A DNA stretch of 64,000 nucleotides from a virus, in IMG/VR virus record IMGVR_UViG_3300025280_000031, positions 1 to 64,000 of that record. The stretch is one strand, 5' to 3'. The position numbers were made by a program, and so were the translations under genes. Below are positions 38,575-56,400 of the stretch, piece after piece (the first letter of the stretch is position 1; every line of letters begins with the position of its first letter). The notes below the pieces were generated by a model, which was not told where the DNA came from, made no database searches, and saw only the letters and a list, made by a program, of their open reading frames with translations.

Positions 38575-40347
38575 TTAACCGTGAAGGTCAGCAACTACTA
38601 CAAGACCGTACATATCAGGACGTACCATCTTTTTAGCATAGCGAGTCATGACACCCTTACGGGGCACGAAGTCTTCAATACCAAAGATAGTAGGCGTTAC
38701 CTGGAGAGGCACGTAAGGAGCATATACATAGCCGCTCTCAAGGAACGAACTACCCTTACGACCAACAAGAACAACGTTCCTGGGGAAGTAAGGATCTACG
38801 TAGATATCCCATTTCTTGCTCAGACTACCAGTTTTGACAGCACCAACTGAGCCTCTGTCGTAATCCCCTGTTACATCAGCGCGGAAGCCGGCTGTGAACT
38901 CAAGGATATTAGCAACCTCAGGGCTGCAAACTACAAAGTTGGCTCCACCACGAAGCGTCTTACGGTGAATCTGAGCGGAAACATCATTGATGGTTTCGCA
39001 AAGAGTCTCATACCATTCAGACACTGTGCCAGTGAAGTCAGCACCAAGAAGACTCTCATTGGAGAGAGTGCTAATTGGAGCGCCAGTTGTGCGATCAAGG
39101 AATTTACCTGGTCGACGAGACCAATACAAAGTACTAGCAGTGGCACCCTTAACAAGATCCTCGAGAATCTCACGATCAAGTTCTAGAGCAATTTGCTCAG
39201 AAAGAATACCAGTAAGCTCTACTTCGGCATCAAGATTGTGATAGGCGTTAAGGTCTTGACCAAGCTCCGGAGTCCATTTGGCCTTCAGTTTCTTGGTTTG
39301 TGCCGTAACGGAGACACTATCAACTTTGATATCGATCTCAGGGATGCCAGTATCGTTTTCCAGTGCCCATTCGGACTGGCCAACGACGACACCAATGGAG
39401 TCCGCACTTGCTGCAGCTGCAGAACCACCAAAATCATCAGCAGTAGGATACGTAAATGATAATGAGTCATTGGCACCTAGCGCCGTGTTAACAACGCTCG
39501 GGTCATCGGAATCAGATGCGGCATAGAGAAAAACAACTGTTCTGCTTGAACCAGAGAACTGTGTCAAACGACGAACTTGTTTGACACTATTTCCCAGAGT
39601 ACCTGAAGTCGTTGTAATCGTAATCCCTTGAAGATTGTTCTTGTTAACATCGTCAAGGTTACTAATGTCGACTGTTGCAACAGCAATACTAGTTGTTCCT
39701 GACGTAAAATCAGGATCAAAACGACAAAGCTTATCAAAATCAGCTTGAGTTTGAACATGAAGGCCGGCAAAGGTATCGCCAGAACTTACCTGCGCACCAC
39801 CGAAGGTGCCGGAACAAACTGCAGTGATTGTGACATCAGCATTTGAAGCCGTAGGTGAAGAATAACCGTTGTTAAGTGAGTAGGGCCCAAGCTCTACATT
39901 AACACCGGTCAGGTCAACACCACCAGTAAGTTGTTGACCTAACTTTCCGCCGCCATAAAGTGACATTTCATCGCCATGAGTGGAGAGTGAAAGTCCAAGA
40001 TGATCTTTCAAATTATGCGAAAAGTCTAGAAAGAAAATGAGACCCGAAGGGAGACTCATTGGTTGCACTGACACAAGGTCATTTGCAATAAGAGAGCCGA
40101 ATACACGGCGTACAATTGGAAACGCAACAGCAGCAAAGCCTTCTACATTACCAGCTTCCATTGAAGAAGCTTCGCGAAGAAGCTCTCTGGCCTGGTTCTC
40201 TAGAAGACGAGACATGCTCTGTCGCGTGGCATCGTTATTGATTCCTTCAAGAAGTCCAGTCTTTTCCCACTTATCAAGTAGAGCAGCACCTTCCTTCTGG
40301 AGGTCACGATTAACCATGCCTTCAGTTAATTTATCTAATACAGACAT
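38575..40347 (-). CDS. major capsid protein (gp23-like)
   Basis: The 590-residue protein has the gp23 pattern: an N-terminal helical delta region with SRLLENQARELLREAS, then AVAFPIVRRVFGSLIANDLV and SVQPMSLPSGLIFFLDF, and a C-terminal half with FVVCSPEVANILEFTAGF, WDIYVDPYFPRNVVLVGRKG and YAPYVPLQVTPTIFGIEDF. The N-terminal part is expected to be removed by the gp21-like protease during maturation; candidate (I/L)-x-E sites occur before residue 70. It builds the hexamers of the head. The start has AAGGAGG upstream and the gene ends in a strong terminator. Confidence 0.95.
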   Translation of the reverse strand: MSVLDKLTEGMVNRDLQKEGAALLDKWEKTGLLEGINNDATRQSMSRLLENQARELLREASSMEAGNVEGFAAVAFPIVRRVFGSLIANDLVSVQPMSLPSGLIFFLDFSHNLKDHLGLSLSTHGDEMSLYGGGKLGQQLTGGVDLTGVNVELGPYSLNNGYSSPTASNADVTITAVCSGTFGGAQVSSGDTFAGLHVQTQADFDKLCRFDPDFTSGTTSIAVATVDISNLDDVNKNNLQGITITTTSGTLGNSVKQVRRLTQFSGSSRTVVFLYAASDSDDPSVVNTALGANDSLSFTYPTADDFGGSAAAASADSIGVVVGQSEWALENDTGIPEIDIKVDSVSVTAQTKKLKAKWTPELGQDLNAYHNLDAEVELTGILSEQIALELDREILEDLVKGATASTLYWSRRPGKFLDRTTGAPISTLSNESLLGADFTGTVSEWYETLCETINDVSAQIHRKTLRGGANFVVCSPEVANILEFTAGFRADVTGDYDRGSVGAVKTGSLSKKWDIYVDPYFPRNVVLVGRKGSSFLESGYVYAPYVPLQVTPTIFGIEDFVPRKGVMTRYAKKMVRPDMYGLVVVADLHG

Positions 40348-40368: not shown

Positions 40369-41361
40369 TTATTTAATACCTGCTAAAGTCTTCCACCTAT
40401 CTCTATGTGGATTACTTTTGTTTTCCTCTTTTCTATGAGGAATAGTTGTTGAAGAATTTCGTTTAACGGCTTCGCTCAGTGATTGCGGAGTGCGCTTTCG
40501 CGAACTTCCCACTGCGCTTTGAAGAGTCTCGTAAATAACTCTGGCTTCTTCAACTGAATCGACATTAGACAGGGTTTCGACAATTTTAGTTTTTTGCCGC
40601 TCATTCAGGGAGGTGCTACCCAATACACGATTCGTGTACAACAACTTGGCATTTGAAAGGTTTACTTCTTCAAGTTTTTCTTTCACCTGCACAAGCATGT
40701 TCTTATATTTTTTGTTTTGCTCACGAAGTTTTTTATTGTTTTCTTTAAGTTTTTTAACAGATTTTTCGAGTTCTTTTTTCTTTTCATCTTCTTCTAATTC
40801 TTCAGCTTCGTCTTGAGCGTCTTGAGCTAATGCAATTTCTGCATTTTCTCTATCAAGTGCTTTATTTGAGGCGCCGCCCAATTGGCCCGACGGGACATTC
40901 TTCACATCAACAGTTAATTTTTCAATAATAGAAGCAAGCTGCTCTTCCGTAAGTTCAACTTCGTCATCCGCCTCTGTCAATTCTTCAGATTCTTCTTCGG
41001 ATTCTTCTTCTAGAGTTTGCTCATCGCTGTCTATTTCTTTTTGTAGCTCTTCAGCAAGTTTATCTAGATCAATGTCAACTTCTTGATCTTCATCAATTTC
41101 TTCTTTCTGATAATGTGCGTGTGGAACATCTTTAAATTGATCTTCTTCTTCTTCTAAAGGCTCTTCTAAAGGCTCTTCTAAAGGCTCTTCTAGCGCTAAA
41201 TCATCCGGAGCGACTTCATCTTGTTCCAAGAGGGAATCAATCGTTTCTTTAACTTCAGTAGAATATTTTTCAAGAATAGAAGATTCAGCGCTTCTCAGAG
41301 CTGTTTCTCTCAAAGCATCTGCATCAACAATTGCTTGCTCCAACATACTAGTATTTGACAT
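40369..41361 (-). CDS. prohead core scaffold protein (gp22-like)
   Basis: A 330-residue, very acidic, coiled-coil protein directly upstream of the capsid gene, as gp22 is in T4. Residues 55-75 hold a repeated Glu-Glu-Pro-Leu motif encoded by a 12-bp tandem repeat near 41155-41190. The central part (about 175-230) is a Lys/Glu-rich coiled coil (KKLKENNKKLREQNKKYKNM). The C-terminus becomes basic (HRKEENKSNPHRDRWKTLAG). It would form the scaffold core and be degraded by the prohead protease. It has a late-promoter motif 28 bases upstream. Confidence 0.85.
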   Translation of the reverse strand: MSNTSMLEQAIVDADALRETALRSAESSILEKYSTEVKETIDSLLEQDEVAPDDLALEEPLEEPLEEPLEEEEDQFKDVPHAHYQKEEIDEDQEVDIDLDKLAEELQKEIDSDEQTLEEESEEESEELTEADDEVELTEEQLASIIEKLTVDVKNVPSGQLGGASNKALDRENAEIALAQDAQDEAEELEEDEKKKELEKSVKKLKENNKKLREQNKKYKNMLVQVKEKLEEVNLSNAKLLYTNRVLGSTSLNERQKTKIVETLSNVDSVEEARVIYETLQSAVGSSRKRTPQSLSEAVKRNSSTTIPHRKEENKSNPHRDRWKTLAGIK

Positions 41362-41388: not shown

Positions 41389-41396
41389 TAAATAGT
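41389..41396 (-). promoter_or_regulatory. late-promoter motif ACTATTTA upstream of scaffold-capsid operon
   Basis: TTACTATTTATC on the minus strand, 28 bases upstream of the scaffold start, in the gap 41362-41432. The transcript from here would carry scaffold and capsid genes and end at the terminator at 38509-38551. Confidence 0.65.
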
Positions 41397-41432: not shown

Positions 41433-43469
41433 CTACTGGTTTTCAAGCTTTGCCTCTAGTTCTGCAACTTTTGCTGATAATTCTTGAACTGCTTTTACGA
41501 GAATAGTAGTCATTGACGATTTTGAGACCCTTTGTCTACCATCGGGGTCGACTGACCAAGAATTATGGTCAGGAACATTATATTTATCGACTACTTCTTT
41601 TACTTCTTGAGCTATAAATCCCCAATGATATTTATTACTGCCGCCCATGGGAGTGGTATCCTCTGGATTGTATGCAGTCCATTCTTGAGGAAATTCGCTT
41701 GGAGATTTATGTCTATACTTAACTGGATTTAAATCGTTTATAAAATCTAATCCTATATCTATACATTCAATATCTTTCTTTTGCCTTCGATCTGAAGATG
41801 CATCCCAAGTTTCATCAGAATTAAAATCACACCTGATGTGGCTTGTATCATTTCCAATATGAACTGCATTGTCAGCAGTTCCATTCATATTGTTGCCAAT
41901 AACAATTTGATTGTGTGCCGTTGCATCTTGAGCATCACAACTTACACCTATGCATGTATTCTCGTAACCAGTCGTAGTATCATCACCTGCGTAGGCGCCA
42001 ATAAAGGTATTAGAATGAGCGGTTGTTATCATGACCATGCCGGCGGCGGCTCCGACGCATGTGTTGTTGTTACCATCTATGTCATTAGTTCCACCGCCGG
42101 TGGTGTAGTCGCCCAACATTGCGTTTGCACCGATAGCGGTATTGCCGGCGCCCGTTCCAACATAACCTCCTGCTGACGCTCCAACTGCGGTGTTATTGCC
42201 GTCACCATCTGCTGATACGGCCGCGGCGAGGGTGCCGTAGCCGATAGCGGTATTGCCATCACCAACAATGTTAACAGCCAAAGCGGAGTTCCCAATGGCG
42301 GTTTGATATTGTCCTACTGTGAGGGATGAGCCGGCATCAAGGCCTATGGCAACAGTGCCGTCTGCATCTGCAGTCATGACGTCTGCACCAGCGCCGTAAC
42401 CAATACAAACTGTACCGTCAACAAGCTGTGTCGATCCGCCGGCGTCTTTGCCAACAAAAACATTTTTTATGCCTGTAGTAACAGCATCACCAGCAGCGGC
42501 GCCTATGGCAGTGTTCGAGTTCGGCTGATTGCCACCGGTTTGACTGGCGAGAGCATTATATCCTACTGCTGTATTAAAATCGCCGACATCCTCCAATAAT
42601 AGCGCAGTGTGACCAATGGCTGTATTATATTGGCCAGTTGTAATTGCAGCACCTGCACTTTTACCGACCAAAACTGTACCGTCAGCAAGAGTACTACCAG
42701 CAGCAAGAGCAACGCCGGCGCCCGAACCAATAACAACAAGATCGCTCATCGTCGTCGCGACTACAGCGGTGTTGTAACCAATAATTACATTATCGTCCCC
42801 AGTTGTAAGGTCATTTCCAGCGTTTTCGCCCATCAAAAGATTGTAATTTCCACCAGCTTCGATAGCAGCGCCGGCGAGCTTGCCAAACACCGTATTTGAA
42901 GTGCCGAGCACGTTTGTAAGAATATCTCCTTTAAAAGAAACAGAACCAGAGAAAGTGGCGTTGCCGTCGTCGGTGAGGCAAAGGGCAGTGGCAGCCCGTG
43001 GCTGGAAATCAATTCTTCCGCCGGTGCTTGCTGTCGTCGACAAGAGCATCTCACCGGTGGCGGTGTTAACGTTAAACGAAACTCCCGTACTCCCATGGCC
43101 AGAATCGCCGATGCCCCACGCGGGGTTGTCGTTCATCCCGATCCCCCTTAGATAATAACGATTGCCTCCGACACCGGAGTGCAGGCCAGAATCCTTCAAT
43201 GTGAGAATACAATTCCCTTCTGCCTGTGTGCCCGTTTCGTCAGTGTTCGTGGATTCCATCAAAATGCCCCTGCCTCCACTAACATGAAGAGCGTAGGGAT
43301 GATTTCCGTCGGCTTCGCTGCCGCTGGCGATAATAAGCACAGAGCCTGAAACTATAAGGTTTCTGTTACCTTTATCGCCTCTAATTTCAACACTATTTGA
43401 AGCAGTTAAATAGGATGTACTAGTATTGCTTGGTTCAAAACTGCTTCCTCCACCACCTGGTCCTGACAT
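41433..43469 (-). CDS. fibre/adhesin with YadA-like head repeats and S74 chaperone domain
   Basis: A 678-residue protein. Residues about 180-540 consist of repeats of the form NTAIGxxA...TGxxNTAVGxxA, a left-handed beta-roll like the head of trimeric autotransporters. The last 120 residues are an intramolecular chaperone/peptidase S74 domain (SSDRRQKKDIECIDIGLDFI, WGFIAQEVKEVVDKY, then a C-terminal coiled coil). S74 domains trimerise the fibre and then cut themselves off. The N-terminus MSGPGGGGSSFEPSNTSTSY is flexible. The gene is unusual in lying inside the head cluster, between the scaffold and the bS21 gene, so it may be a head-decorating fibre rather than a tail fibre. Confidence 0.85.
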   Translation of the reverse strand: MSGPGGGGSSFEPSNTSTSYLTASNSVEIRGDKGNRNLIVSGSVLIIASGSEADGNHPYALHVSGGRGILMESTNTDETGTQAEGNCILTLKDSGLHSGVGGNRYYLRGIGMNDNPAWGIGDSGHGSTGVSFNVNTATGEMLLSTTASTGGRIDFQPRAATALCLTDDGNATFSGSVSFKGDILTNVLGTSNTVFGKLAGAAIEAGGNYNLLMGENAGNDLTTGDDNVIIGYNTAVVATTMSDLVVIGSGAGVALAAGSTLADGTVLVGKSAGAAITTGQYNTAIGHTALLLEDVGDFNTAVGYNALASQTGGNQPNSNTAIGAAAGDAVTTGIKNVFVGKDAGGSTQLVDGTVCIGYGAGADVMTADADGTVAIGLDAGSSLTVGQYQTAIGNSALAVNIVGDGNTAIGYGTLAAAVSADGDGNNTAVGASAGGYVGTGAGNTAIGANAMLGDYTTGGGTNDIDGNNNTCVGAAAGMVMITTAHSNTFIGAYAGDDTTTGYENTCIGVSCDAQDATAHNQIVIGNNMNGTADNAVHIGNDTSHIRCDFNSDETWDASSDRRQKKDIECIDIGLDFINDLNPVKYRHKSPSEFPQEWTAYNPEDTTPMGGSNKYHWGFIAQEVKEVVDKYNVPDHNSWSVDPDGRQRVSKSSMTTILVKAVQELSAKVAELEAKLENQ

Positions 43470-43966: not shown

Positions 43967-44179
43967 TTAATTAGTTTCTTGTTTGGCTTTCAACTTGTCC
44001 AAAGTTGCTTTTCTTCTCTTTTTCATCCTTCTTTTTTCCTCAGATTTTTTTTCATAATACATCCTTTCACGAATGTCTTCTATGATTCTTTCTTTCTTAA
44101 CTTTCTTTGCAAATCTTTTCAAAGCCCTTTCAATGTTCTCGTCCCTTTTAAGTCTGACTTCTACGTTAACTGACTTCAT
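43967..44179 (-). CDS. rpsU: phage ribosomal protein bS21
   Basis: The 70-residue protein begins MKSVNVEVRLKRDENIERAL and continues KRFAKKVKKERIIEDIRER, a clear match to bS21 (VxVRxxExxExALRRFKKxxExxGILxDIRxRexYEKPSxxRRRK). The Lys/Arg-rich C-terminus, EKRRMKKRRKATLDKLKAK, also agrees. bS21 sits at the mRNA exit of the 30S subunit near the anti-Shine-Dalgarno. A phage copy may replace the host one and steer translation initiation. The start at 44179 is used because AGAGGA is well placed; the longer frame adds ten unmatched residues. It lies in the late head cluster. Confidence 0.92.
   Translation of the reverse strand: MKSVNVEVRLKRDENIERALKRFAKKVKKERIIEDIRERMYYEKKSEEKRRMKKRRKATLDKLKAKQETN
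43968..43975 (-). promoter_or_regulatory. late-promoter-like motif ACTAATTA upstream of 154-aa head gene
   Basis: AAACTAATTA on the minus strand, 21 bases before the start of the gene at 43483-43947. It overlaps the last codons of the bS21 gene (Thr-Asn-stop), so part of the match could be coding chance. Confidence 0.4.
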
Positions 44180-44184
44180 ATTTT

Positions 44185-44616
44185 TTATCCTCTCGCCAAC
44201 GTTTTCCAAGCAGCCACATTTCCCATTAAACCTGAAATGTCCACGCCGGCGTCGTTGGGATCCACATTGGAAAGTGGGCCTTGCGGCGAGCTTCCATCTT
44301 CCGGACTTCCTGCTTTTGACATTGGCGCTGTTCCTTCGAATAAATTGACTCCATTATAAGAGTCTTTGCCAACTGCGTCTAACATTTTCTTTCTGGTCTC
44401 GTTGATCTTTTGAGACCTCTTTTGTTTTTCTTGCAATTGCAATTGTTTTATTTCGTCATCATTTTGCCTTTGTTCAACAATTGGTTGTCGTGTTGCTCCC
44501 AAGCCTTTGACAACTTCAGAAATGACATTAGACAATAAACCTTCTTCTAAGAGGGCTTCTTGAATGCATTCTTTAATAAGCGGCTTTAATACTTTTTTGA
44601 GTTCTGATTTTTTCAT
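44185..44616 (-). CDS. putative virion/internal protein, 143 aa
   Basis: Starts MKKSELKKVLKPLIKECIQE, an amphipathic Lys/Leu/Ile helix of the same style as the MKITKSQLKQIIKEE leaders of its neighbours. It then has a coiled-coil stretch of Gln/Lys/Glu and a Gly/Ser/Pro-rich C-terminus ending WKTLARG. The start at 44616 makes an ATGA overlap with the upstream gene. A longer frame to 44823 would be Arg-rich antisense-like sequence and is rejected. Its role is probably in head assembly, judged by place. Confidence 0.65.
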   Translation of the reverse strand: MKKSELKKVLKPLIKECIQEALLEEGLLSNVISEVVKGLGATRQPIVEQRQNDDEIKQLQLQEKQKRSQKINETRKKMLDAVGKDSYNGVNLFEGTAPMSKAGSPEDGSSPQGPLSNVDPNDAGVDISGLMGNVAAWKTLARG

Positions 44617-45050
44617 TTTTCTCTGGAGGTAGTTAGATCTAGCTGTAAGTAATCTATTTGTATCGGTTTCACCCTCCGCTTGCCGGCGAGTTGGTCCTCT
44701 CTCGGCCATGCAAAATTTACAGGCGGCACATATAGTTGCTCCGCCGCCTTCAGTTCTTCTTCGGTTTCTGCTGCCACCTTCGCCTCGACTTTGAGGGCGT
44801 GCGCTAGCTTGGCCGAGTTCCATTCGTCTTCAGGCACCTCGCCCTCTGTTTCGGGGGTGAGGCCCGGAAGAATCATGTTTTCCTGTTCAGGTCTTAAGTG
44901 CTCCGGAGGAGGGCCATTTTTAGATGATGGTTTTACACGAACGGAAACTGTTGATTGTCCGAATCCTGCGACTGCTGGTGCAGCTTCATTCAAAACCTTT
45001 TCAAGTTCTTCTTTGATGATTTGTTTAAGTTGTGATTTGGTTATTTTCAT
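44613..45050 (-). CDS. leader-bearing putative internal head protein, 145 aa
   Basis: The N-terminus is MKITKSQLKQIIKEELEKVL followed by NE, the best example of a leader shared by several proteins here. The following body, Pro/Glu/Val-rich with little predicted structure, has no recognisable domain and is encoded by GC-richer DNA. The leader contains two (I/L)-x-E sites (IKE, LNE), the recognition type cut by T4 prohead protease gp21. Internal proteins of T4 are likewise targeted to the prohead by an N-terminal leader removed by gp21. The gene follows the protease directly, with a four-base overlap. Confidence 0.65.
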   Translation of the reverse strand: MKITKSQLKQIIKEELEKVLNEAAPAVAGFGQSTVSVRVKPSSKNGPPPEHLRPEQENMILPGLTPETEGEVPEDEWNSAKLAHALKVEAKVAAETEEELKAAEQLYVPPVNFAWPREDQLAGKRRVKPIQIDYLQLDLTTSREK

Positions 45051-45667
45051 TTATCGCCTTCTCCTCTTAATATATCATTTAATGCGCGATTGATTCTATC
45101 TGCTTTTGTGAAAGCGCCTTTTGCAGCGTTTTCATGAAGGTGTCTTGGCTTCATGTAAGCGCCGGTTGTTGAAGGTTCTGAGACCATGTCGAAACAAATC
45201 AATTGGAAATCGTCTTCAACGATTGTATCTCCGTTGGATTCAGTAACTGATCCCATTCCTCTCGAAGAAATTCCTAATTTTACTCCAGCATTGACAAGTT
45301 CTTTTAATACTTGGCCTGAAGGAGTGTTTAAAACTTGAATTTTGCCCATTACAGCGTCTTCTTGCCACCAAACCTCTGTTACAAGATGAGAAGCATTCCT
45401 GAGATTAATAACTGACTCATCTGGATGATCTAATTCTCCCAATGCTCTCCTTTCTTTTACAATCTTTGTGTAATTTTGGACTTCTCTTTCTAAAATAGCA
45501 CCAGGATAAACACGACCATTCCCATTTTTAGCATTTGCTCTTTGCATAACTCCAGAAAGGAAAACGTGACCTTCTTTGACCATTTTTTTTTCGGCCTCGG
45601 TTAAAAAGTCTTGGCAAACGCCGCCTTCACAAAGCTCATAGTATTCTCTTAGTAATAATTTTGACAT
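45047..45667 (-). CDS. prohead core protease (gp21-like)
   Basis: The 206-residue protein matches the T4 gp21 assemblin-like protease. VFLSGVMQRANAKNGNGRVY is the N-terminal block. GELDHPDES holds the catalytic His, and GVKLGISSRGMGSV holds the catalytic Ser. The C-terminus contains FDMVSEPSTTGAYM, also typical. It cleaves capsid, scaffold and internal proteins after (L/I)-x-E during maturation. It is adjacent to two leader-bearing genes, which fits the idea that those are its substrates. Confidence 0.92.
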   Translation of the reverse strand: MSKLLLREYYELCEGGVCQDFLTEAEKKMVKEGHVFLSGVMQRANAKNGNGRVYPGAILEREVQNYTKIVKERRALGELDHPDESVINLRNASHLVTEVWWQEDAVMGKIQVLNTPSGQVLKELVNAGVKLGISSRGMGSVTESNGDTIVEDDFQLICFDMVSEPSTTGAYMKPRHLHENAAKGAFTKADRINRALNDILRGEGDK

Positions 45668-46083
45668 TATCGCGGTGTCTCCAACTCAGCCTCTGCCGAT
45701 GGAAGTGTTTCTTCCTCAAAGAAATGGTCATCTAATACATGATCCAAATCGATTTGGCCTTCGGTAGTTCCTTCAATAAATCCAGTTAGAGCAGCCTCAA
45801 GAACCATAATTATCTCTTTTCTTGCAGCCTCTTTGTTAAATTCTTCATACCCTTTATATTCTTCAAGTACTCCTTCCGCAATTTCTTCAAACATATCCTT
45901 CAACGTATTAAGCAAATCGTCGAAACCGAGAACGGCGGTGCCGCCATATGCGTGTCCCAAGCGTTCAGGACTAAACTCTGTCTCACTTTCGCCTTCAGGA
46001 TAATCTGTTATATCGACTTCCTTTAAAGCGTTTCCAATCTCTTCTTTAACAATTTGTTTGAGTCTCAATTTAGTTACTTTCAT
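45667..46083 (-). CDS. leader-bearing putative head protein, 138 aa
   Basis: The N-terminus MKVTKLRLKQIVKEEIGNAL is a variant of the shared leader, again followed by an L-x-E site (LKE). The body is acidic, with helices (LLNTLKDMFEEIAEGVLEEY, then ARKEIIMVLEAALTGFIEGT) and an acidic tail. No known domain is visible. Its stop overlaps the protease start by one base. Most likely an internal or scaffold-associated protein. Confidence 0.65.
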   Translation of the reverse strand: MKVTKLRLKQIVKEEIGNALKEVDITDYPEGESETEFSPERLGHAYGGTAVLGFDDLLNTLKDMFEEIAEGVLEEYKGYEEFNKEAARKEIIMVLEAALTGFIEGTTEGQIDLDHVLDDHFFEEETLPSAEAELETPR

Positions 46084-46130
46084 ATAGTCACGATCCTTTA
46101 CAGCAATGCCTCACCGGCTGGAGCATCCAT

Positions 46131-46427
46131 TTAGCTGTCCAATTTTCTGTATTCATGTTTAACTCCGTTATCTCCAAATAATGTACATAAGATATAAGAT
46201 GTTCCAGAACTCAAACATCCCAATAAAAAGTAATTAACAATATTATTATCAAATATAAATAGTTCTGTGTACCTGTTTATGCCTACTAAAAATACACCAA
46301 TCCAAAAGCCCACACATATGGGACAATGAAAAAAATGATGCTTTGGTCTGACTCTATTAAATATTGTGCCGTAGACCAAAATTTGTGTCAACCCATAAGC
46401 ACAAAGAATAAAATATATCAGCTCCAT
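46131..46427 (-). CDS. small membrane protein, DUF1360-like
   Basis: A 98-residue protein with two or three hydrophobic helices: LIYFILCAYGLTQILVYGTI, then FWIGVFLVGI, then IVNYFLLGCLSSGTSYILCT. HHFFHCPICVGFW holds a CxxC with a preceding His, similar to the DUF1360 family. A host-membrane location is likely; the role is unknown. It stands in the head cluster between the 178-aa and 138-aa genes. Confidence 0.7.
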   Translation of the reverse strand: MELIYFILCAYGLTQILVYGTIFNRVRPKHHFFHCPICVGFWIGVFLVGINRYTELFIFDNNIVNYFLLGCLSSGTSYILCTLFGDNGVKHEYRKLDS

Positions 46428-46428
46428 T

Positions 46429-46965
46429 TTAATACCTATAGAAGGATGTCATGCCATATGGCCCACGAATATATCCAGGAATAAGCGTGCCTTTTCTTTC
46501 TTCATGAGGCACTTCGCCAAGTTCTGTTGAATGCTCCGCATCCGGCTCTGTAAGATAATCTAATTCATCTTCCTCATATTGTTTTCTTCTGTTGAAATAT
46601 GGCTCCTCTTCTTTAAGGAACTTTGATACTGAATATAGAGCAACCTGTACTGGATCGATATCTTCATTAATTGAATTTAGTATTACAGCTTCCATAGAGC
46701 CGTAAATATTTCCGCCTTGAACACTTTCAAAAGAGATAACTCCTTTTTTTCTTAAAAATCTAAAAAGCCTATCTTGCGCTTCGTAAACCTTATCCGAAAA
46801 CATATCTTTTGCGAAAGATAATACTTTTTTGTTTTCGCCATTTTCCGTCAATACAATATCAATGTCTTCGTGATCGAAAATCATAAGACTTCCATCAAGA
46901 CCTTTTCTTGCGTTTAAAGTAATAGTTTCTTGAATTTTACTTCCAATGGTTATTTTAATGTTCAT
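46429..46965 (-). CDS. hypothetical protein in head cluster, 178 aa
   Basis: N-terminal half with strands (IKITIGSKIQETITLNARKG) and a helical middle (FAKDMFSDKVYEAQDRLFRF). The C-terminal third is acidic and Tyr-rich (EEDELDYLTEPDAEHST) and ends in a Gly/Pro/Tyr tail IPGYIRGPYGMTSFYRY. I recognise no family. It overlaps the 276-aa gene by 11 bases and lies close to portal and protease genes, so it may be a head assembly factor. Confidence 0.6.
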   Translation of the reverse strand: MNIKITIGSKIQETITLNARKGLDGSLMIFDHEDIDIVLTENGENKKVLSFAKDMFSDKVYEAQDRLFRFLRKKGVISFESVQGGNIYGSMEAVILNSINEDIDPVQVALYSVSKFLKEEEPYFNRRKQYEEDELDYLTEPDAEHSTELGEVPHEERKGTLIPGYIRGPYGMTSFYRY

Positions 46966-47785
46966 CTTTGTGGATCTCTTTTACTAAATTTTGAATTTTA
47001 AGAACTTTCATAATCACGTTTTTGTTAATCTTTTCTTTTTTAAAATTTTCCAAAATTTGCAAAACTTTTTTTGTTTTTTTTGTCATTTCTAAATCTTGCT
47101 TTATGTCTTTTAGCTTCAAAGAATCTTCAACAACCTTCCTCAACCTAGACACCTCTTCGTTTAAAAATATTTTTAATTCAACACCATTATTAGAAAAAGA
47201 AGAAATATATTTATTTAAAAGCTCTTTTTGTTCCGAGATCAACTTTGATGCATATTCTAAATTGAATTTGTTTACAAACGATTTATATACTAAATTGTCA
47301 ATAGGCTTAATTGTTAACTCGTTGATTTCAGTTTTATTTGATATTTTTTTAATTAATGCCTGTTCTAATAATACGCGTTTTTTAGTTGGGGTTTCTTCGT
47401 TAAATATTTGATAAGCTGTAGCTAAACTTTTATAGTTCGATACAAAATTTGAAAAAACAGAATTCGAAAGAAGGGAATTGATTTTTTTAATTAAAGCACT
47501 TTGCTCTAGAAATAATTGTTTTTTGTCTATACTGCAATGTTCCTTTCTTATTTCGTAAACAAGCTTTTCAGCAGTCTGTGGTTCTAAATCATACGATTCA
47601 CAAAGAGTTTTATACAATTTTAATTCTTTATAAAGCAGTGACTTCTTTTCAAAATGTTTTTTTATAATGGAAACTATTTCATTTTTTAATTCTAAATTTT
47701 TTTCCAAAACTGCTTTCGTCATTTCTTTAATTAAAGATTCATAAAGAAAAGCAGTATTACGTTTCTTATTGTGTTTTAGTTTCAT
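46955..47785 (-). CDS. hypothetical coiled-coil protein downstream of portal, 276 aa
   Basis: A Lys-, Leu- and Glu-rich, almost entirely helical protein (KAVLEKNLELKNEIVSIIKK, LRKVVEDSLKLKDIKQDLEM). It has no Pro/Gly-rich linkers or enzymatic motifs. It overlaps the portal 3' end by 20 bases. Its DNA is markedly AT-rich. It may be a chaperone or scaffold partner for the portal; the family is unknown to me. Confidence 0.6.
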   Translation of the reverse strand: MKLKHNKKRNTAFLYESLIKEMTKAVLEKNLELKNEIVSIIKKHFEKKSLLYKELKLYKTLCESYDLEPQTAEKLVYEIRKEHCSIDKKQLFLEQSALIKKINSLLSNSVFSNFVSNYKSLATAYQIFNEETPTKKRVLLEQALIKKISNKTEINELTIKPIDNLVYKSFVNKFNLEYASKLISEQKELLNKYISSFSNNGVELKIFLNEEVSRLRKVVEDSLKLKDIKQDLEMTKKTKKVLQILENFKKEKINKNVIMKVLKIQNLVKEIHKDEH

Positions 47786-49733
47786 TATCTTTCAACTCCA
47801 ATTCTGTAATCAAAAATTTAACTTCATTATTTACTTCGAATAATCTTTTTTCCTCACTTGAATAATTAGTATCTTTACCCTCAGGAAGCCCCCTTCCAAG
47901 TCCTAATAAATCTGAAAAGCCTTTATGAGTGTTTCTTCTGGTTGCTTTCCCCGTTTCGGAAGAATACTGACTCATATAACTCCTTTTTCTTGCACCAGAT
48001 TTTCTTTTATCAGTCTTGACCGGCATATACCACCTGTTATTTGAATTAGATGTTGTGGTCGCTCCATCTTTTCTTTTAAGTTTGTACCAATCTGCATCAT
48101 CTCTTTTCGCTGGTGTGGCTGGAGGCGGCAAAATAGCAGTTTCTGGCTCTTCTCCAGGTACTTCTTCTCCTGCGGGGAGAGCTTCAGGAGCCGGTTCTTC
48201 TCCCGGGAGGGCGGGTTCTTCACCTTCTAAACCAAATTCGCCGCCGGGCATTCCTCCTAATCCAATTTCCCCTTCACCTAATTCTTCACCTGCAGCTGCG
48301 GCTTCCAATAGAGCTTCAAATTTGCGATCATAAAACATCTCTCTTTGTATTCTAATAAACTCTTCATCAGAGATATTAAATACATTTTTAGCAACCCAGC
48401 CTTTACTAAAGAATCCTTCTGTTGCAGAAGTTGCAACTTCAAATTTCGTTCTCCAGTTTTCAAGCTCTTGAAGTTCTGCAATCCTGGATGGGTTGTTTAA
48501 TGTCAAGCCAAATGATATTAAATCATCTCCACGATAGCCAAGAGTATATAAATGAATGATTCCTATTTTTTCTAATTCTGATAATATTGACCTCTGAAGT
48601 CTCTGAATTGTTCTCGCGAAACGAATATCCTTTTGTGCAAGAGTTGTCTTATCTTCTTCTGCTCCATCACCTCTAAAAAGATATGATTGAGGGATTTTTA
48701 AAGCAGCAAATAATTTATCCTTAAGATATTTAATATCATCAATATCACCAGTGTAACTTCCACCAGGAAGATTTTCAACTCGAGTCGAAGCACCACCTCT
48801 AACAGGAATAAAATAATCTTCTTCAATGCTTAAGGGGTTATAACGCAAATCAACTCGCCCGGTATCTGAATCAATAACTTGATTTCGTTTCATTTGCGTC
48901 ATCGCTCTTTGCATAAACTGTTCAACATCTTCTGGCGGAATATTTCCAACATCTATGTAGAAAATCTTTCTTTCTGGAGAACGAACAATACGATAGGCCA
49001 TCACAGCGTCTTCCAAAAGATTCAGTTGTCTCCAAATTCTTCTTGCTGGTTCTAAAATACTTGTTCCATATGGAGTATATTTGTCATTTCCTAAAACTCG
49101 AAAATGAGCAACCTGCCAATTTTCCAAAGTTAAGCCGCCGGTGTTCCATTGAAATTGAACATAATTTGGATTAGTATCATCCTGCGCCTCCATTCTTTCT
49201 AGATCTTGTCCTGGAAGGCCAATAACATTTCTCACGCCCAGTTCTTGGTCGACGTCCAAATAAAGAAAGTAATCACCAAATTTACACATCGAACGACACC
49301 AGCCAAAAAGATTAAATTCAATATTTAAAATATTATTATAAAGATTATCAAGAACGCCTTTAATTTCTTCATTTGGACATTTTATATCCAACAAACGAGA
49401 TAATCCAGTTGAAGTTGTCATTTCGTCTGCGTAAACATCTAAAGCAGAAGCAATAATTGGCTCATATTCCATTTGATCAAAATCTGCATATCTCTCAATA
49501 CGATTTTGGTTTGCCATAATATTTGCAGTCATATTCGCAAATGGGTCATACGTCGTCTTTTTAAATTGTTTACCGGCTGCAGAAGTAAAACTATATTTAT
49601 CTAACTCTCTTCTCTTTTCTTTTCTTGGTCTCTGGCTTTTATAGTTCGTAATTGGACCAGAGAACAGTCTTGTTAGTTGTTTGAATAATTTAGATTGTGG
49701 ATTTCTTGGATTTTTTTTATCTTTATCGGCCAT
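47766..49733 (-). CDS. portal protein (gp20-like)
   Basis: The 655-residue protein has the gp20 pattern: NRIERYADFDQMEYEPIIAS and ALDVYADEMTTSTG at residues about 75-110, then GWCRSMCKFGDYFLYLDVD, WRQLNLLEDAVMAYRIVRSP, ERKIFYIDVGNIP, LKDKLFAALKIPQSYLFRGD and EDKTTLAQKDIRFARTIQRL. It forms the 12-fold ring through which DNA enters. Near residue 480 begins a Glu/Pro/Ala/Gly-rich, GC-rich linker (to about 550), probably disordered. It sits directly after the terminase gene. Confidence 0.95.
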   Translation of the reverse strand: MADKDKKNPRNPQSKLFKQLTRLFSGPITNYKSQRPRKEKRRELDKYSFTSAAGKQFKKTTYDPFANMTANIMANQNRIERYADFDQMEYEPIIASALDVYADEMTTSTGLSRLLDIKCPNEEIKGVLDNLYNNILNIEFNLFGWCRSMCKFGDYFLYLDVDQELGVRNVIGLPGQDLERMEAQDDTNPNYVQFQWNTGGLTLENWQVAHFRVLGNDKYTPYGTSILEPARRIWRQLNLLEDAVMAYRIVRSPERKIFYIDVGNIPPEDVEQFMQRAMTQMKRNQVIDSDTGRVDLRYNPLSIEEDYFIPVRGGASTRVENLPGGSYTGDIDDIKYLKDKLFAALKIPQSYLFRGDGAEEDKTTLAQKDIRFARTIQRLQRSILSELEKIGIIHLYTLGYRGDDLISFGLTLNNPSRIAELQELENWRTKFEVATSATEGFFSKGWVAKNVFNISDEEFIRIQREMFYDRKFEALLEAAAAGEELGEGEIGLGGMPGGEFGLEGEEPALPGEEPAPEALPAGEEVPGEEPETAILPPPATPAKRDDADWYKLKRKDGATTTSNSNNRWYMPVKTDKRKSGARKRSYMSQYSSETGKATRRNTHKGFSDLLGLGRGLPEGKDTNYSSEEKRLFEVNNEVKFLITELELKDNETKTQ

Positions 49734-49738
49734 TAACT

Positions 49739-51325
49739 TTATCCTTTAAGAAGCCAAGAAAACTTCTCTTGCTCCTTTACATTTTTTTTTATTCGATTAC
49801 TTTTTTCAATTGACTTATAACCGTGCATTCCGGGTACAGTTGTATTAATAATACTATCAGATTTAAACATTGAAGTTAAACAAGCCTTGTGGTGTTCGAT
49901 CTTTCTTTTGTTTTCCACAAATACAGTATCTTTGATCCAGCATCCAATTGCAAAAGACATAACTAAATCATCATTTTCTGAACGCATTGCTTGAGCCTTT
50001 CCGTTGTGCCAAATAAAAGTTTTAAACTCATTATAAAGTCTAGACGAATACGTTGTAATTAGCTTGTTCCTTATAAATTCTTCCATTTTTGCTACAATGA
50101 TTGGTCTTGTTTTTAGCGACGTAGTAAAACCAGCTACTCCATTAGAAATATTTTCTGCAGTCAACTGATCAATATATTCATGAGTTGACTTAACAGAATA
50201 ATAAATATTCGAATATTCTAGTTCTTTTAACTTTTCCAAAACTGCAAAACCAACTGAATTGTTTTCAACAACTAATAAGCAATCGCCATATTCCTTACCA
50301 GCATCAAAAAGTATATTTGAAAAAATATCTGGTGTTACCTTACCTTGATATTCTGCAATTATTTCTGCTGTTTCTAATTTAAAAACATGAAATACAGAAT
50401 AGTCTTGTCCATCGCCTCTCGCAACATCTGCGGTCAGCATGTATGTGCATTCTGGTTTATATTCTTCCCAAATCCAAAAATTTCTATCAAAACCAGTTCT
50501 ATGCTTTGGTTCCTTAACACACTGTTCCATAAATGTTATATCATCCGGATGAATTACAGTTTCGCCAGAAGTGTTAAAGTTGCATTCTAGTTCTTGAGAC
50601 ACTTGTCTAATAGACATATTTTTAGTTTCTTTTTCAAACCAAGTTTGATCACGATCTGGATGGACATCCCATAATAACTTTATTGAATGAAAATCATTTC
50701 TTCTCGATTCTGCATCAATGTACGTTTTGTAAAACCAACCACCAACACCATTCGGAGTACTGAGTGCAATGACGCGCCCACCAGTTGAAATTGTAGGATA
50801 TAACCCTGTCCACAATTCATCAAGACCATCAACATGTGCTGCCTCATCAATAACCAATAAGGACAACGCCTCTGAACGACCCGCATCAGGAGAAGTGGTG
50901 GATGCTTTAATTTGTGAACCGTTGTCCAGTTCAAAGCTAGTTCTATTATCGACTATAACTTTAGAAATCTGCATCCATTCCGGGAGACGCTTAATAATAG
51001 ACTTAACTTTTTTGACAAGATTTCCTGCTGTACTAAATTTTGTTGCCATAACAAGAACATTTTTATCTCTATGGAACAACATCAACCAAACAATATAAGC
51101 CGCTGTAATCGTTGAAATGCCAAGCTGTCTGGCTTTTAGAATAATATTAAAACGATAATCATTAAAATCGTCGATAAGATCCTCTTGATAATCATAAAGT
51201 TTAAAAGGGATTAACCCTTTCATTGGATGAGAAATCTTGCAATAATTATTTATGAAGTAAGTTGGATTCTTACCACTCTTAAGAATCTCTTTTGTAATCT
51301 CTTTTTTTGTTAATTGATAGGACAT
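49739..51325 (-). CDS. terminase large subunit (gp17-like)
   Basis: A 528-residue packaging motor. FKLYDYQEDLIDDF (Q-motif-like), the Walker A-like NIILKARQLGISTITAAY (residues 60-77; Arg66 in place of the usual P-loop Lys position), and Walker B SLLVIDEAAHVDG form the ATPase. The C-terminal nuclease has TADVARGDGQDYSVFHVFK (first Asp), CLLVVENNSVGFAVLEKL (Glu) and ENDDLVMSFAIGCW (Asp). It translocates and cuts concatemeric DNA. No small terminase subunit is evident immediately nearby, although the 191-aa gene upstream is a possible candidate by place. Confidence 0.95.
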   Translation of the reverse strand: MSYQLTKKEITKEILKSGKNPTYFINNYCKISHPMKGLIPFKLYDYQEDLIDDFNDYRFNIILKARQLGISTITAAYIVWLMLFHRDKNVLVMATKFSTAGNLVKKVKSIIKRLPEWMQISKVIVDNRTSFELDNGSQIKASTTSPDAGRSEALSLLVIDEAAHVDGLDELWTGLYPTISTGGRVIALSTPNGVGGWFYKTYIDAESRRNDFHSIKLLWDVHPDRDQTWFEKETKNMSIRQVSQELECNFNTSGETVIHPDDITFMEQCVKEPKHRTGFDRNFWIWEEYKPECTYMLTADVARGDGQDYSVFHVFKLETAEIIAEYQGKVTPDIFSNILFDAGKEYGDCLLVVENNSVGFAVLEKLKELEYSNIYYSVKSTHEYIDQLTAENISNGVAGFTTSLKTRPIIVAKMEEFIRNKLITTYSSRLYNEFKTFIWHNGKAQAMRSENDDLVMSFAIGCWIKDTVFVENKRKIEHHKACLTSMFKSDSIINTTVPGMHGYKSIEKSNRIKKNVKEQEKFSWLLKG

Positions 51326-51335
51326 TCATCACTTA

Positions 51336-51911
51336 TCACTGTTCTTTTTTTCGAGTTACATTCTTGGCATAGTTCTTGCCTTTCCCAATTTCAAAGTTTT
51401 TATTATATGCTAACCAGTTTTTAGTAACTTTATCTAATCTTTCTTTTGCAGAAGAGCCTTCCTCAACGGGGAGCACTCCATCAAGACCGCCAATTTTATA
51501 TACACAAGTAGCTTGGCAGTTGCTTCGAACATTACTAATGTGTTGAACCATAATATCGACTTCGCCTTCTTTTGTAAGAGTTAAAATGTTACCAGTGACT
51601 TTTTTATATTCTCTCTTCAAATAATTTGCTACGTCATTGACAGTCGCTGTAATATTATTTTCAAACTTGTTTCTGTCGTGAGTCTCTTTTAATTTAATTT
51701 CTGCATGATACAAAATATTTAATTTGTTTCCCGCGAGTCGAACTTTGAAACCATCAACCTCGCGAGAATCCAAGACTGCATCGCCTTGTTCTCTACGAAG
51801 CCCCATACTTCTCTCTTCGCCATCAGCGTTGTAACGGGCATCGTGAGAGCCATCGTAAGCATTTGCGGCGGCTTGTGAGATTCCTTGAATAATATCTAAT
51901 ACAGTTGCCAT
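51336..51911 (-). CDS. hypothetical late protein upstream of terminase, 191 aa
   Basis: The protein begins MATVLDIIQGISQAAANAYD, has a strand-rich middle (FKVRLAGNKLNILYHAEIKL), a helix (NDVANYLKREYKKVTGN) and a basic C-terminus KGKNYAKNVTRKKEQ. Family not recognised. Its stop lies 10 bases before the terminase start and it heads the terminase-portal operon under the motif at 51942-51949. By place it could be a small terminase or head-completion protein, but nothing in the sequence proves this. Confidence 0.6.
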   Translation of the reverse strand: MATVLDIIQGISQAAANAYDGSHDARYNADGEERSMGLRREQGDAVLDSREVDGFKVRLAGNKLNILYHAEIKLKETHDRNKFENNITATVNDVANYLKREYKKVTGNILTLTKEGEVDIMVQHISNVRSNCQATCVYKIGGLDGVLPVEEGSSAKERLDKVTKNWLAYNKNFEIGKGKNYAKNVTRKKEQ

Positions 51912-51941
51912 TAATTTTCTCCTGAATAAAATAACCTAATG

Positions 51942-51949
51942 TAAATAGT
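51942..51949 (-). promoter_or_regulatory. late-promoter motif ACTATTTA upstream of terminase operon
   Basis: GACTATTTACATTAG on the minus strand, 31 bases upstream of the start of the 191-aa gene. The downstream CATTAG matches the TTAG following the motif at the scaffold site. Confidence 0.65.
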
Positions 51950-51971
51950 CTTTTCTTATTTCTTAATCCTT

Positions 51972-52082
51972 TTATTCTATAATTTTCAAAAAGAGTTTTA
52001 TGTCTTCTTCGAGATGAACAACTCTCTTCTTAGAAAGCTCATCTTTGATGATCTGTTTTAGTTGGGATTTGGTTAGTTTCAT
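51972..52082 (-). CDS. 36-aa mini-protein made almost only of the shared leader
   Basis: The frame reads MKLTKSQLKQIIKDELSKKR, then VVHLEEDIKLFLKIIE. The first 15 residues are the leader seen at the start of the 145-aa and 321-aa proteins. TAGGAA lies eight bases upstream of the ATG at 52082. The gene is far shorter than its relatives and may be a minimal internal peptide, a truncated paralogue left after loss of its body, or an internal peptide released by the prohead protease (LEE fits the (I/L)-x-E site). Confidence 0.65.
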   Translation of the reverse strand: MKLTKSQLKQIIKDELSKKRVVHLEEDIKLFLKIIE

Positions 52083-52095
52083 TTTGTTATTCCTA

Positions 52096-53061
52096 TTAAT
52101 ATTGCTGCGTCCAGTTAGTGATCATCTCTTTAGCTGCTTGCTTGGCATAATTATACAACATGCCTCCTCTGGGTGCTGAAATCGTTCTTTTCGTAGACAT
52201 TTCTGCAGCTTTTTGTTCGATTGCATTAATCAGTGTCCCTTCATCGTAATCATGAAGCACTTCGCCTCTGGGGCCCTTGAAGTTGCCCTTAGGATCATAT
52301 TTTTGTTGTTCTTCTTTTAACTCATAAACAATTGCTAGCGCATTCATTCCCACGGTAGTAGATGTGACACTATTTACCTGTTCCTTCCATTTCACCTTAT
52401 CAAATTTCTTTATGGCTTCTCCTGACCAGAGGCCTGCGGAGATATTTGGAGTTCCTGAAGAATCTGTGCGAGGATCTGGCCATGCTGAGATGAACCCGCT
52501 GGTGGCAATATCAGGATGATAATAGCGCACTTCTCCTGGTTTTCTAGGGGGAGCTTGGCCGCTGCCTTGGCCACGTGGGCCATGGTACCAAATGATTGGA
52601 TATGGATCTCCGGGTTCTCGTTTTCCAAATCGTATCATTTGGTCGTCGGCGACTTGGGCCTTTTTTTCCCAGTCGGTCTTTGCGGGTGGTCGTCTAGTTT
52701 TATGATCTTCGAGAGCGTTCAAATATTCTAAAGGGGTCTTAAAAGATGAAGTGCCATGGCGTTTCCACCCCTGATTCTTCGCGGTGCTGAGCAAATACTT
52801 TTCAAATTCTTCTGGTGACATGTGCTTTTTCATCCCCCCATAGCCTCGCGGTATACCTTCAGCATCTTCAAAATCGCGCATAGCCTGCTTTGCCGCTGCG
52901 TCCGTCTCGCGGAATTTTGCTGCGCGTGCCTGGGCGGCTCGGCGCTCTGGCGTATCCGGTGCGCCCTTCTCGTAGGCTTGGACAATGTCCGCGTAGTCTT
53001 CGAAAATATGTGTCACCCCTTCTTTAATAATTTGTTTAAGTTGTGATTTTGTAATTTTCAT
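52096..53061 (-). CDS. leader-bearing putative internal/virion protein, 321 aa
   Basis: Begins MKITKSQLKQIIKEGVTHIF, the shared leader, followed by an Ala/Arg/Glu-rich helical part (RAAQARAAKFRETDAAAKQA) in GC-rich DNA. A globular-looking domain, residues about 140-310, contains YPIIWYHGPRGQGSGQAPPR, YYHPDIATSGFISAWPDPR and VTSTTVGMNALAIVYELKEE. YHGP followed by charged residues recalls ADP-ribosyltransferase-type proteins only faintly, so I do not assign it. The start at 53061 overlaps the upstream stop as ATGA. If packaged, it would be injected with DNA and could act on the host. Confidence 0.6.
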   Translation of the reverse strand: MKITKSQLKQIIKEGVTHIFEDYADIVQAYEKGAPDTPERRAAQARAAKFRETDAAAKQAMRDFEDAEGIPRGYGGMKKHMSPEEFEKYLLSTAKNQGWKRHGTSSFKTPLEYLNALEDHKTRRPPAKTDWEKKAQVADDQMIRFGKREPGDPYPIIWYHGPRGQGSGQAPPRKPGEVRYYHPDIATSGFISAWPDPRTDSSGTPNISAGLWSGEAIKKFDKVKWKEQVNSVTSTTVGMNALAIVYELKEEQQKYDPKGNFKGPRGEVLHDYDEGTLINAIEQKAAEMSTKRTISAPRGGMLYNYAKQAAKEMITNWTQQY

Positions 53062-53467: not shown

Positions 53468-56400
53468 TTACTCAGATGTTAATTTACTAACAAGATTTTT
53501 GAGATCCTCAATTTGATTCTGTTGTTCTTTAACCGTTGTGGATAATTCTTGAACCGCTTTGACAAGAGGCGCTATCATATTAGAATATTCTAAATGTTGT
53601 TTTGTTGTGTTTTTATCAACATAAACAAGATCATTGTTTGTGCTAAATCCAAACTCTTCCAATGCACTCCCCACGTCTTGTGCGAGGAAACCAACTCTTA
53701 GTTTGTTTTTTTCATCGTCTTCCATAATTCTAGGTGCGGAACCATCTTTACTCCAAGACAATTTCGCTTTCAGATCATCGTCATAATCAACAGGCTGTCT
53801 CTTTTCATATTGAACAGGCTGAAGTTTGTTAATGAAACCTAGCCCAAGAGATATATCTTCGATTTTTTCTTTTGTTCTCTTATCAGAAGTGTTAATAGTG
53901 CCATCAGCATATAGAACTGCGTCGCCATCTGATGCAGCATACAATCTTGTTATACTTGCGTTTCCTATAGTAGCATAATTAGCTCCTTGACTAACAGTCC
54001 CATAACCAATAGCTATCTGATTTGCTGTACCAGCAGCTGCCGACTCTGCATAGTTCCCAATAAGAGTGTTTTGTAACCCAGTGGTAAGAGCGGCACCGCC
54101 AAAGTTGCCACCTCCACAATTCGCCCCAATGAGTGTGTTGTTCCTGCCTGTGGTGACAGAAACGCCAGCCTCGGTTCCAACTGCAACGTTGCCAACAAAA
54201 TTACCTTCGTCGGAATCGCCGTCCCAGGATCCAACATTTTGAACATAAAGCGCGTGGTATCCAACAGCAGTAGTAGCACTGTCATTGGCTGAAGAGCCCA
54301 TGGCGCTATCGCCGACTGCTACATTGTATGAACCCGTTACGAGTACATCTCCTGTTTGCCACCCAACAAGGATATTGTTGTCGCCAACTGTAAGATCGTT
54401 TCCAGCTTGTTCTCCAACTATCACATTATAGTTCCCGCCTGAAGCGATGTTTGCTCCCGCATTAAGACCGAACACTGTGTTCGAAGTACCGCTATCGTTA
54501 CTAGAGAGCGAGATTCCAGTAGCCTTCAAAGTAGTAAATGTCGCTGCAGCAGCAGACTCTCCACCAATAACAGCACCATCGATCTCGCCGGCGTTTACAT
54601 AGACAGAAACAGGATCTGCATCTGTTCCGAGCTGATCGATGTAGCCGATGCCGTGGACATAAAGATCTTTCCATTGAAGGCCTGCTGCTCCTAAATCATA
54701 AGTAGCGTCAGTTTTTGGATCAATATCTTGAGCAATGCGTCCAGTGATCTTTACATCGACATCGGTCGCCATGCCAAGAGTTACGGCCCCGTCAAATTGG
54801 GCCGCGCCAACAACTTCCAAAGTTCCTTGCAGTTGTGTAAGGCCAGTTGCATGAAGCGAGCCAGTAACTGCAGCATCACCGGTCATATTCATTCCGTTAG
54901 AAGCAGTCAATTTGCCAGTGACAGTTGTTATATCAGATGTAGCATTTCCCAAGGTTACGTTAGCATCGAAGCTTGAAGCACCAACAACCTCTAGAGTTCC
55001 TTGCAATTGTGTAGGGCCAGTTGCATGAAGCGAGCCAGTAACTGCAGCATCACCGGTCATATTCATACCATTGGAGGCAGTCAATTTGCCAGTGACAGTT
55101 GTGACGTCAGTTGCAGCATTTCCCAAGGTTACGTTAGCATCGAAGCTTGAAGCACCAACAACCTCCAGAGTTCCTTGCAGTTGTGTAATGCCAGTTGCAT
55201 GAAGCGAACCAGTAATTGCAGCATCACCGGTCATGTTCATGCCATTGGAGGCAGTCAATTTGCCAGTGACAGTTGTGACGTCAGTTGCAGCAACGCCTAA
55301 AGTCACGTTGTTGTCGAAAGTTGCATCTTGTTCAAAAGTAACAGCTGCTCCTGCAAAACGTAACTCGTCAGTGCCATTTTCGTCATATTCAATAGTAGCA
55401 TCTTCTCCAGTTCCAAATAAAATTTTCCTATCATCGGGGATTAGCAATCCCTTTGAAGCGGTCAATTGGCTTGAAACAGTTGTAACATCATTATCAGCGG
55501 TGATATGATTTGAAACCAAAAGACCTTGCGAAGCTGTAACATTCGTCGTAGCCTGAAAGTCTCCAGTTACTTTCAACCCATTACTAGAGACGAGGTGAGA
55601 AGTTGTTGAGCCTAAAGAGTCAGCCTCGAAGAGAAGCGTAGAGATCGGAGAATCCGATGAGCCACCAAAATGAATACCAGCACCATCTGTATTGGCTTCA
55701 TTCGAACCAGAGGCAACAAGAATTATTTTGTCAGCAATATGCAATTCTGTTTCATGATTTGTGATAGTGTTCACAATACCCTGTACATCTAAATCGCCCT
55801 GAACTGTAACTTTGCTACTAAATATAGCATCTCCGGTAACTGACAAGCCATTTGAACCTGTAAGTTTTCCAGTAACAGTTGTAACGTCGGTTACGGCGTC
55901 TCCCAAAGTAACATTGGCATCAAAAAGTGCATTACCAACTGAACGAAGTGTACCGTTTACATCAAGCATGTAAGAAGGAGATGTATCCCCGATACCAACC
56001 TTCTGGTCCTTCATCGTAATTGTTGTGCTGGTTGAACCATCGTTCATAACAAGATCGACTCTGGAGTTTCCTGCTCCATTTTGAATTTGGAAGTTGGAAG
56101 AGTTTGAAGCGTTGTTGTCTATTTCAAATATCAAGTCGCCAGAAGAACCTTCAATTTCCAAAATGCTGCTTGGAGTTGCTGTTCCGATGCCGATTCGGCT
56201 ATTACCACCATCAACAAAGAACATATTCGCATTATCATCTGATTCAACACGAAAATCGAAATCGCCGCCGGCTTCATTAGAAACGAAAGGGCCGTAATTA
56301 ATCAACGTATTGCTTCCAGAAACTGTAAGGCTACCTGTAATATTTATAGACCCAGAAAGAGAGCCAGAACTATAAGTCGTCTCCCCAGCAGAACTACTTA

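Follow-up and report, generated by a model that had tools for sequence, protein, structure and literature searches.

A putative capsid-targeting leader on unrelated proteins of uncultured T4-like phages

Head module and leader genes of the contig

The source contig is 66,002 bases long, and the window, the whole stretch of DNA analysed here, comprises its first 64,000. A T4-type head module lies on the minus strand and includes genes for the terminase large subunit (TerL), the portal, a gp21-type protease, a protein in the scaffold position and the major capsid protein. TerL is the basis for placing the virus among T4-like phages, and its nearest cultured relatives are those of Flavobacterium phage immuto (43% identity) and Microcystis phage Mel-JY01 (41%). 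The features of the region are as follows.

38575..40347, minus strand: T4-type major capsid protein, with a propeptide ending in NQARELLRE before ASSM
40369..41361, minus strand: acidic coiled-coil protein in the scaffold (gp22) position, found at the same place in immuto and Mel-JY01
44185..44616, minus strand: 143-aa protein, MKKSELKKVLKPLIKECIQEALLEEG..., with a looser leader-like amphipathic start; a conserved gene downstream of the protease
44613..45050, minus strand: leader protein of 145 aa, MKITKSQLKQIIKEELEKVLNE followed by AAP..., predicted cut after E22
45047..45667, minus strand: gp21-type head maturation protease of 206 aa, the presumed processing enzyme (phrog_207, E = 1.1e-55)
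45667..46083, minus strand: leader protein of 138 aa, MKVTKLRLKQIVKEEIGNALKE followed by VD..., predicted cut after E22, between a 98-aa membrane-like gene and the protease
47766-49733, minus strand: portal
49739..51325, minus strand: TerL
51972..52082, minus strand: 36-aa ORF with the leader MKLTKSQLKQIIKDEL...HLEE
52096..53061, minus strand: leader protein of 321 aa, MKITKSQLKQIIKEGVTHIFE followed by DYA..., predicted cut after E21, with GGAG upstream of 53061

The leaders that a first-pass annotation of the window had described at 45050, 46083, 53061 and 52082 are all present as written on the minus strand. Each start is preceded by a Shine-Dalgarno-like GGA or GGAG; the one at 53061 makes this position, and not 53088, the likely start. 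The annotation had also placed an [ILV]-x-E site in every leader, and at least one downstream site indeed occurs within residues 16-32 of each, as it does in every leader of the contig. A further I-x-E lies inside the leader itself at 45050, 46083 and 53061, while 52082 reads IKD there and has the downstream site only. The protease also matches phrog_3014 (E = 1e-9), which places it in the gp21-type prohead protease family, and its gene (45047-45667) is flanked by the leader genes at 45050 and 46083, in agreement with the adjacency described before. The leader genes at 53061 and 52082 sit upstream of TerL, and the 36-aa ORF at 52082 is a candidate for a short cargo or a decayed cassette. Five further leader genes, absent from the first-pass annotation, lie past the window end at about 64,000-65,590 of the same contig. 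An AlphaFold2 model of the 321-aa protein made from the single sequence had a pLDDT of 45 and was set aside.

The protein at 44616 had been proposed as a fifth, looser bearer of the leader. Its amphipathic, leader-like start (MKKSELKKVLKPLIKE) is real, but the protein is a member of a separate conserved family downstream of gp21 and on present evidence should not be counted as leader cargo. It is probably a head core protein, and no cultured homologue was found. From its place and composition, the acidic coiled-coil protein in the scaffold position is a candidate docking partner of the leaders. Other genes of the region include a small bS21-like protein beside the head genes (43967-44179, minus strand; Pfam Ribosomal_S21, E = 1.4e-13), whose equivalent slot in Mel-JY01 holds a gene annotated as RpsU. 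Two long repeat-rich head-region proteins (41433-43469 and 53468-56509) have C-termini that resemble an S74-type fibre chaperone domain, as judged by eye only.

Leader sequence, predicted cleavage site and distribution

A degenerate DNA pattern of the leader found at least 120 stretches in IMG/VR, which were pooled with other fetched loci. They encode at least 473 leader proteins with distinct bodies, of which 463 are complete, and the median length is 113 aa; the leader analyses took in 352-473 body-distinct proteins. The consensus is M-K-I-T-K-x-Q-L-[KR]-x-I-I-[KR]-E-E. The information content is 2-5 bits per residue up to residue 15 (1.8 at residue 6), with about 3-5 bits at most positions from 1 to 14. 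It drops to 0.3-0.6 at residues 17-22 and is practically zero further on, beginning with residue 24. The leader is amphipathic and basic, with a hydrophobic moment of 0.31 against 0.24 for shuffled sequences.

Conservation ends with an [ILV]-x-E motif of sliding position, which follows the rule of T4 gp21. In T4 this rule is L/I-x-E, and the propeptides of the internal proteins (IPs) measure 10-19 residues (PMC9026906). Within residues 16-25, [ILV]xE was observed 235 times against 102 expected by shuffling (z = 16.4). A two-residue spacing was enriched less (z = 8.9), Asp in place of Glu was unenriched (z = -2.4), and no enrichment of [ILV]xE was present deeper in the bodies. The site occurs within residues 16-30 in 252 of 347 proteins, compared with 63 of 347 for an equally long stretch of the body. 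A second [ILV]xE in residues 16-30 is missing from about 26% of the leader proteins, which retain the IKE at residue 14. After the site, G, Q, S and A are enriched and L is poor, the opposite of what follows [ILV]xE in the bodies.

Bodies that meet the protease inside the prohead would be expected to avoid its site. We compared [ILV]xE with [ILV]x(D/K/Q) in leader bodies and, as controls, in 756 proteins of 82-250 aa that lack the leader and are encoded in the same loci. [ILV]xE was depleted in the leader bodies (log ratio -0.240; CI -0.319 to -0.163), whereas the depletion in the controls was not significant (-0.052). The difference between leader bodies and controls was -0.188 (CI -0.287 to -0.090; bootstrap P 0.00025); this length-matched, spacing-controlled test refined an unmatched count with the same direction and is not a blind prediction. 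Spacings of 0, 2, 3 and 4 gave no difference between bodies and controls, so the depletion is limited to the exact spacing, and it is seen separately in both leader types. These results bear on the suggestion that the leader is a helix targeted elsewhere, to a host or phage complex, a membrane or the tail, with [ILV]xE being merely the helix end. The amphipathic, basic character of the leader and the internal position of some copies would suit such a helix, but it predicts neither the Glu and spacing specificity of the site nor its depletion in the bodies, and we regard it as quite improbable.

The leader loci contain 945 matches to a profile of residues 2-15, and in 98% of these an ATG, GTG or TTG immediately precedes the match; random IMG/VR loci totalling 1.12 Mb contain no match. 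The reversed leader pattern had 0 matches across all scanned contigs. Among 84,980 prokaryote species genomes, the pattern occurs in seven stretches on four contigs, all from metagenome-assembled genomes. One of the four equals an IMG/VR viral contig in length, and the genome with a 306-kb leader contig also has the protease and TerL. These counts support an occurrence that is strictly N-terminal and confined to viruses. In tblastn searches against cultured phages, the 22-residue leader matched only LR756508, and a 44-residue double leader had no match. LR756508 is a distant phage of 484 kb. Of its 19 leader-like N-termini, 16 carry [ILV]xE within the next 14 residues, compared with 6 of 19 body windows. 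The leader-like proteins of immuto, a phage of Flavobacterium sp. LMO8, are gp080 (MKKSQLRQIIKEAL...) and gp094 (MKKSQLREIIRKEL...); their leaders are looser versions of those in the window. A literature search did not find the leader string in published papers, nor a proteome of a leader-bearing phage such as immuto, nor one of phiM12. From its sequence distribution, the leader appears to be common to a large, uncultured group of T4-like phages from aquatic environments.

Gene arrangement, protease coupling and cargo bodies

Whole-contig scans found up to about 28 leader genes per contig, often in head-to-tail arrays. The same slots hold different bodies in related loci. In one (L311), a leader gene again stands between the 98-aa gene and the protease, but its body differs from the one in the window, and in another (L312), the slot upstream of TerL holds other leader-type bodies. 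Relatives of the 45050 protein with 53-61% identity retain the leader, the place beside the protease and the same neighbours. Such tandem arrays and swapped bodies could also arise if the shared start anchored recombination, or stemmed from recent gene duplication, and had no function in itself. However, within one genome the leaders are 0.68-0.83 identical in amino acids, and identical leader residues use different codons at a frequency of about 0.32-0.51, against 0.57-0.64 expected if independent, which amounts to roughly half to four fifths of the independent value. Because the codons differ while the amino acids stay, selection acts on the peptide. Recombination does not predict the avoidance of the site in the bodies either, and this explanation can practically be dismissed.

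A second, internal in-frame leader is present in 17 of 473 proteins, after Met in eight and not in nine; none was found in shuffled or reversed bodies. The eight preceded by Met may be independent starts within a fused frame. Internal copies were seen in several longer leader proteins (L153:7297-8949, L093:12560-13345, L343:3362-4267 and others), and proteins of this kind are possible polyproteins.

In two sets of viral leader contigs, the protease family phrog_207 was detected in 20 of 29 and in 12 of 18 (32/47 together), compared with 4 of 27 random contigs of at least 30 kb (Fisher P about 3e-6, computed with 32/45 instead of 32/47, which makes no material difference). Each of the 19 TerL-bearing leader contigs tested has the protease. 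Eight of the nine without TerL also lack the protease, and the absences therefore seem to reflect head modules that are missing from the contigs. Because the leader phages are related, with TerL proteins 46-69% identical to that of the window, the coupling cannot count as independent evidence for a function. At the expected boundary, the capsid-protein propeptides of the clade end in a conserved LL[RK]E, followed by A, S, G, T or Q, which would suit a protease specific for [IL]xE; those of the cultured relatives immuto and Mel-JY01 end in VSE and ISE before A.

In the window's clade, the protease is no more than 20 kb away from 75% of the leader genes, compared with 45% for rotated positions (p = 0.0005). 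No enrichment was found within 10 kb, and the large-genome clade showed none at all; leader positions of one array (G022) were approximated by even spacing in this test. The proximity is thus dependent on the clade, and the idea that leader genes are always clustered next to gp21 was rejected as a general rule. The expectation that leader proteins would recur in related contigs near gp21 was borne out as to their wide occurrence, but the clustering is weak and restricted to the window's clade at the 20-kb scale.

A candidate promoter motif, ACTATTTA[TC], occurs ahead of the scaffold-position gene and of several more genes on the minus strand. It precedes 18 leader genes, compared with 0 for its reverse complement, and may be a late promoter. 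If so, it would fit packaging. Minus-strand sites (CTATTTA at some) are found at 41395, 51948, 58019, 35786, 32620 and 2122; the sites lie 29-50 bases ahead of gene starts and are biased to the coding strand. The T4 late promoter (TATAAATA) was found upstream of leader genes in one case only.

The bodies have few recognizable domains. Pfam searches with 150 bodies matched at most 17 members in 16 families, mostly weakly, and PHROGs matches were mostly to unnamed families. The bodies are acidic on average (mean net charge -4.8). Two cargoes resemble DEDD-type exonucleases (RNase_T, E = 4.7e-6 and 1.8e-4). The leader-exonuclease-like fusions are L324:2495-3628 and L375:1382-2446, and the former had no homologue in the cultured phage collection. 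Among other bodies, the leader protein L359:2406-3155 has one annexin-like repeat (E = 6.5e-5, just under the Pfam cut-off). The leader-like gp080 of immuto (L145:13188-13943) has a DUF5661 match and a weak, sub-threshold match to the T4 RegB endoribonuclease; its C-terminal domain is common to a protein of Sinorhizobium phage phiM12 and others.

Small, acidic bodies and the two leader genes beside the protease, in the position of gp67 and gp68, recall the prohead core of T4. The leader proteins could then be core or scaffold components that dock by the leader, are chopped and are expelled at maturation, serving head assembly and not injection. Core proteins destined for degradation would be expected to carry many cleavage sites, whereas [ILV]xE is avoided in the bodies. 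The extreme diversity of the bodies and the 28-gene arrays suit an assembly role poorly, and at least two cargoes have exonuclease-like domains. We consider such a role unlikely, if less so than a helix with another destination.

Proposed role of the leader and comparison with known systems

We propose that the leader is a cleavable head-targeting sequence, with a probability of roughly 0.8 on sequence evidence. The proposal of the first-pass annotation that the leader targets proteins to the capsid and is cut by the gp21-type protease is favoured by the sharp end of conservation at [ILV]xE, the Glu- and spacing-specific enrichment, the depletion of the site in the bodies, the N-terminal, virus-only occurrence and the coupling to the protease; a general adjacency to gp21 did not hold, the 44616 protein is doubtful as cargo, and the packaging and injection that the annotation proposed are predictions. 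In the proposed pathway, late proteins would dock, soon after synthesis, onto the prohead core through the amphipathic, basic leader of about 15 residues. The gp21-type protease would then cut after [ILV]-x-E, either at the IKE at residue 14 or, more often, at the second site at about residues 18-27, most often 21-22. The leader peptide would be released, and the mature body would stay in the head with the DNA and would most likely be injected at infection. Bodies would be freely swapped behind a constant leader, as in the T4 internal proteins.

To judge from the sequences, injected effectors are about as probable as not, or slightly more so, as the main cargo. There is about an even chance of the broader picture, in which the head of this very widespread, uncultured T4-like group serves as a general delivery vehicle and a constant, cleavable tag packages for injection tens of unrelated effectors per genome that are rapidly exchanged, some of them as fused units with internal tags split by the prohead protease. 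If the reading is correct, the proteins injected by a large and for the most part uncultured group of aquatic phages can be recognized by one short sequence. They would be small, number in the hundreds and match next to nothing in databases, and they would be natural candidates for anti-defence or host takeover. ORFs of unknown function would become a testable class with predicted mature N-termini, and the leader would be a candidate packaging tag.

The elements of T4-type capsid targeting, namely an N-terminal leader on unrelated proteins, an [ILV]-x-E end and a gp21-family protease in the genome, are all found here. IPI, IPII, IPIII and Alt of T4 similarly have a short N-terminal leader, an L/I-x-E rule and a gp21-type protease, and the T4 internal proteins likewise have diverse bodies behind a conserved leader (PMC9026906, PMC3012670). 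The leaders of T4 measure 10-19 residues, whereas those described here have a different, longer sequence, usually with two candidate sites. T4 has three IPs and Alt, compared with cargo genes that number as many as about 28 on a single contig here, and the head-to-tail gene arrays, some with in-frame internal leader copies, are unlike the T4 IPs. While T4 IP bodies are small, basic and DNA-associated, the leader bodies are acidic. Owing to these acidic bodies and the unrelated leader, the proteins are functional analogues and not members of the T4 IP family.

In SPN3US (gp53 and gp54) and phiKZ (gp93), diverged paralogues share an identical 15-residue N-terminus with protease motifs (PMC5694885). 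These phages also have a gp21-like protease and proteins inside the head (PMC5694885), a location that is predicted for the leader proteins. Their paralogues are few and large, the propeptides are long and the motifs are A-x-E or S-x-E, in contrast to the many small, unrelated bodies and [ILV]-x-E of the present group. On the best reading of these comparisons, the leader system would be of the known T4-like kind but with a new leader sequence and a far larger cargo.
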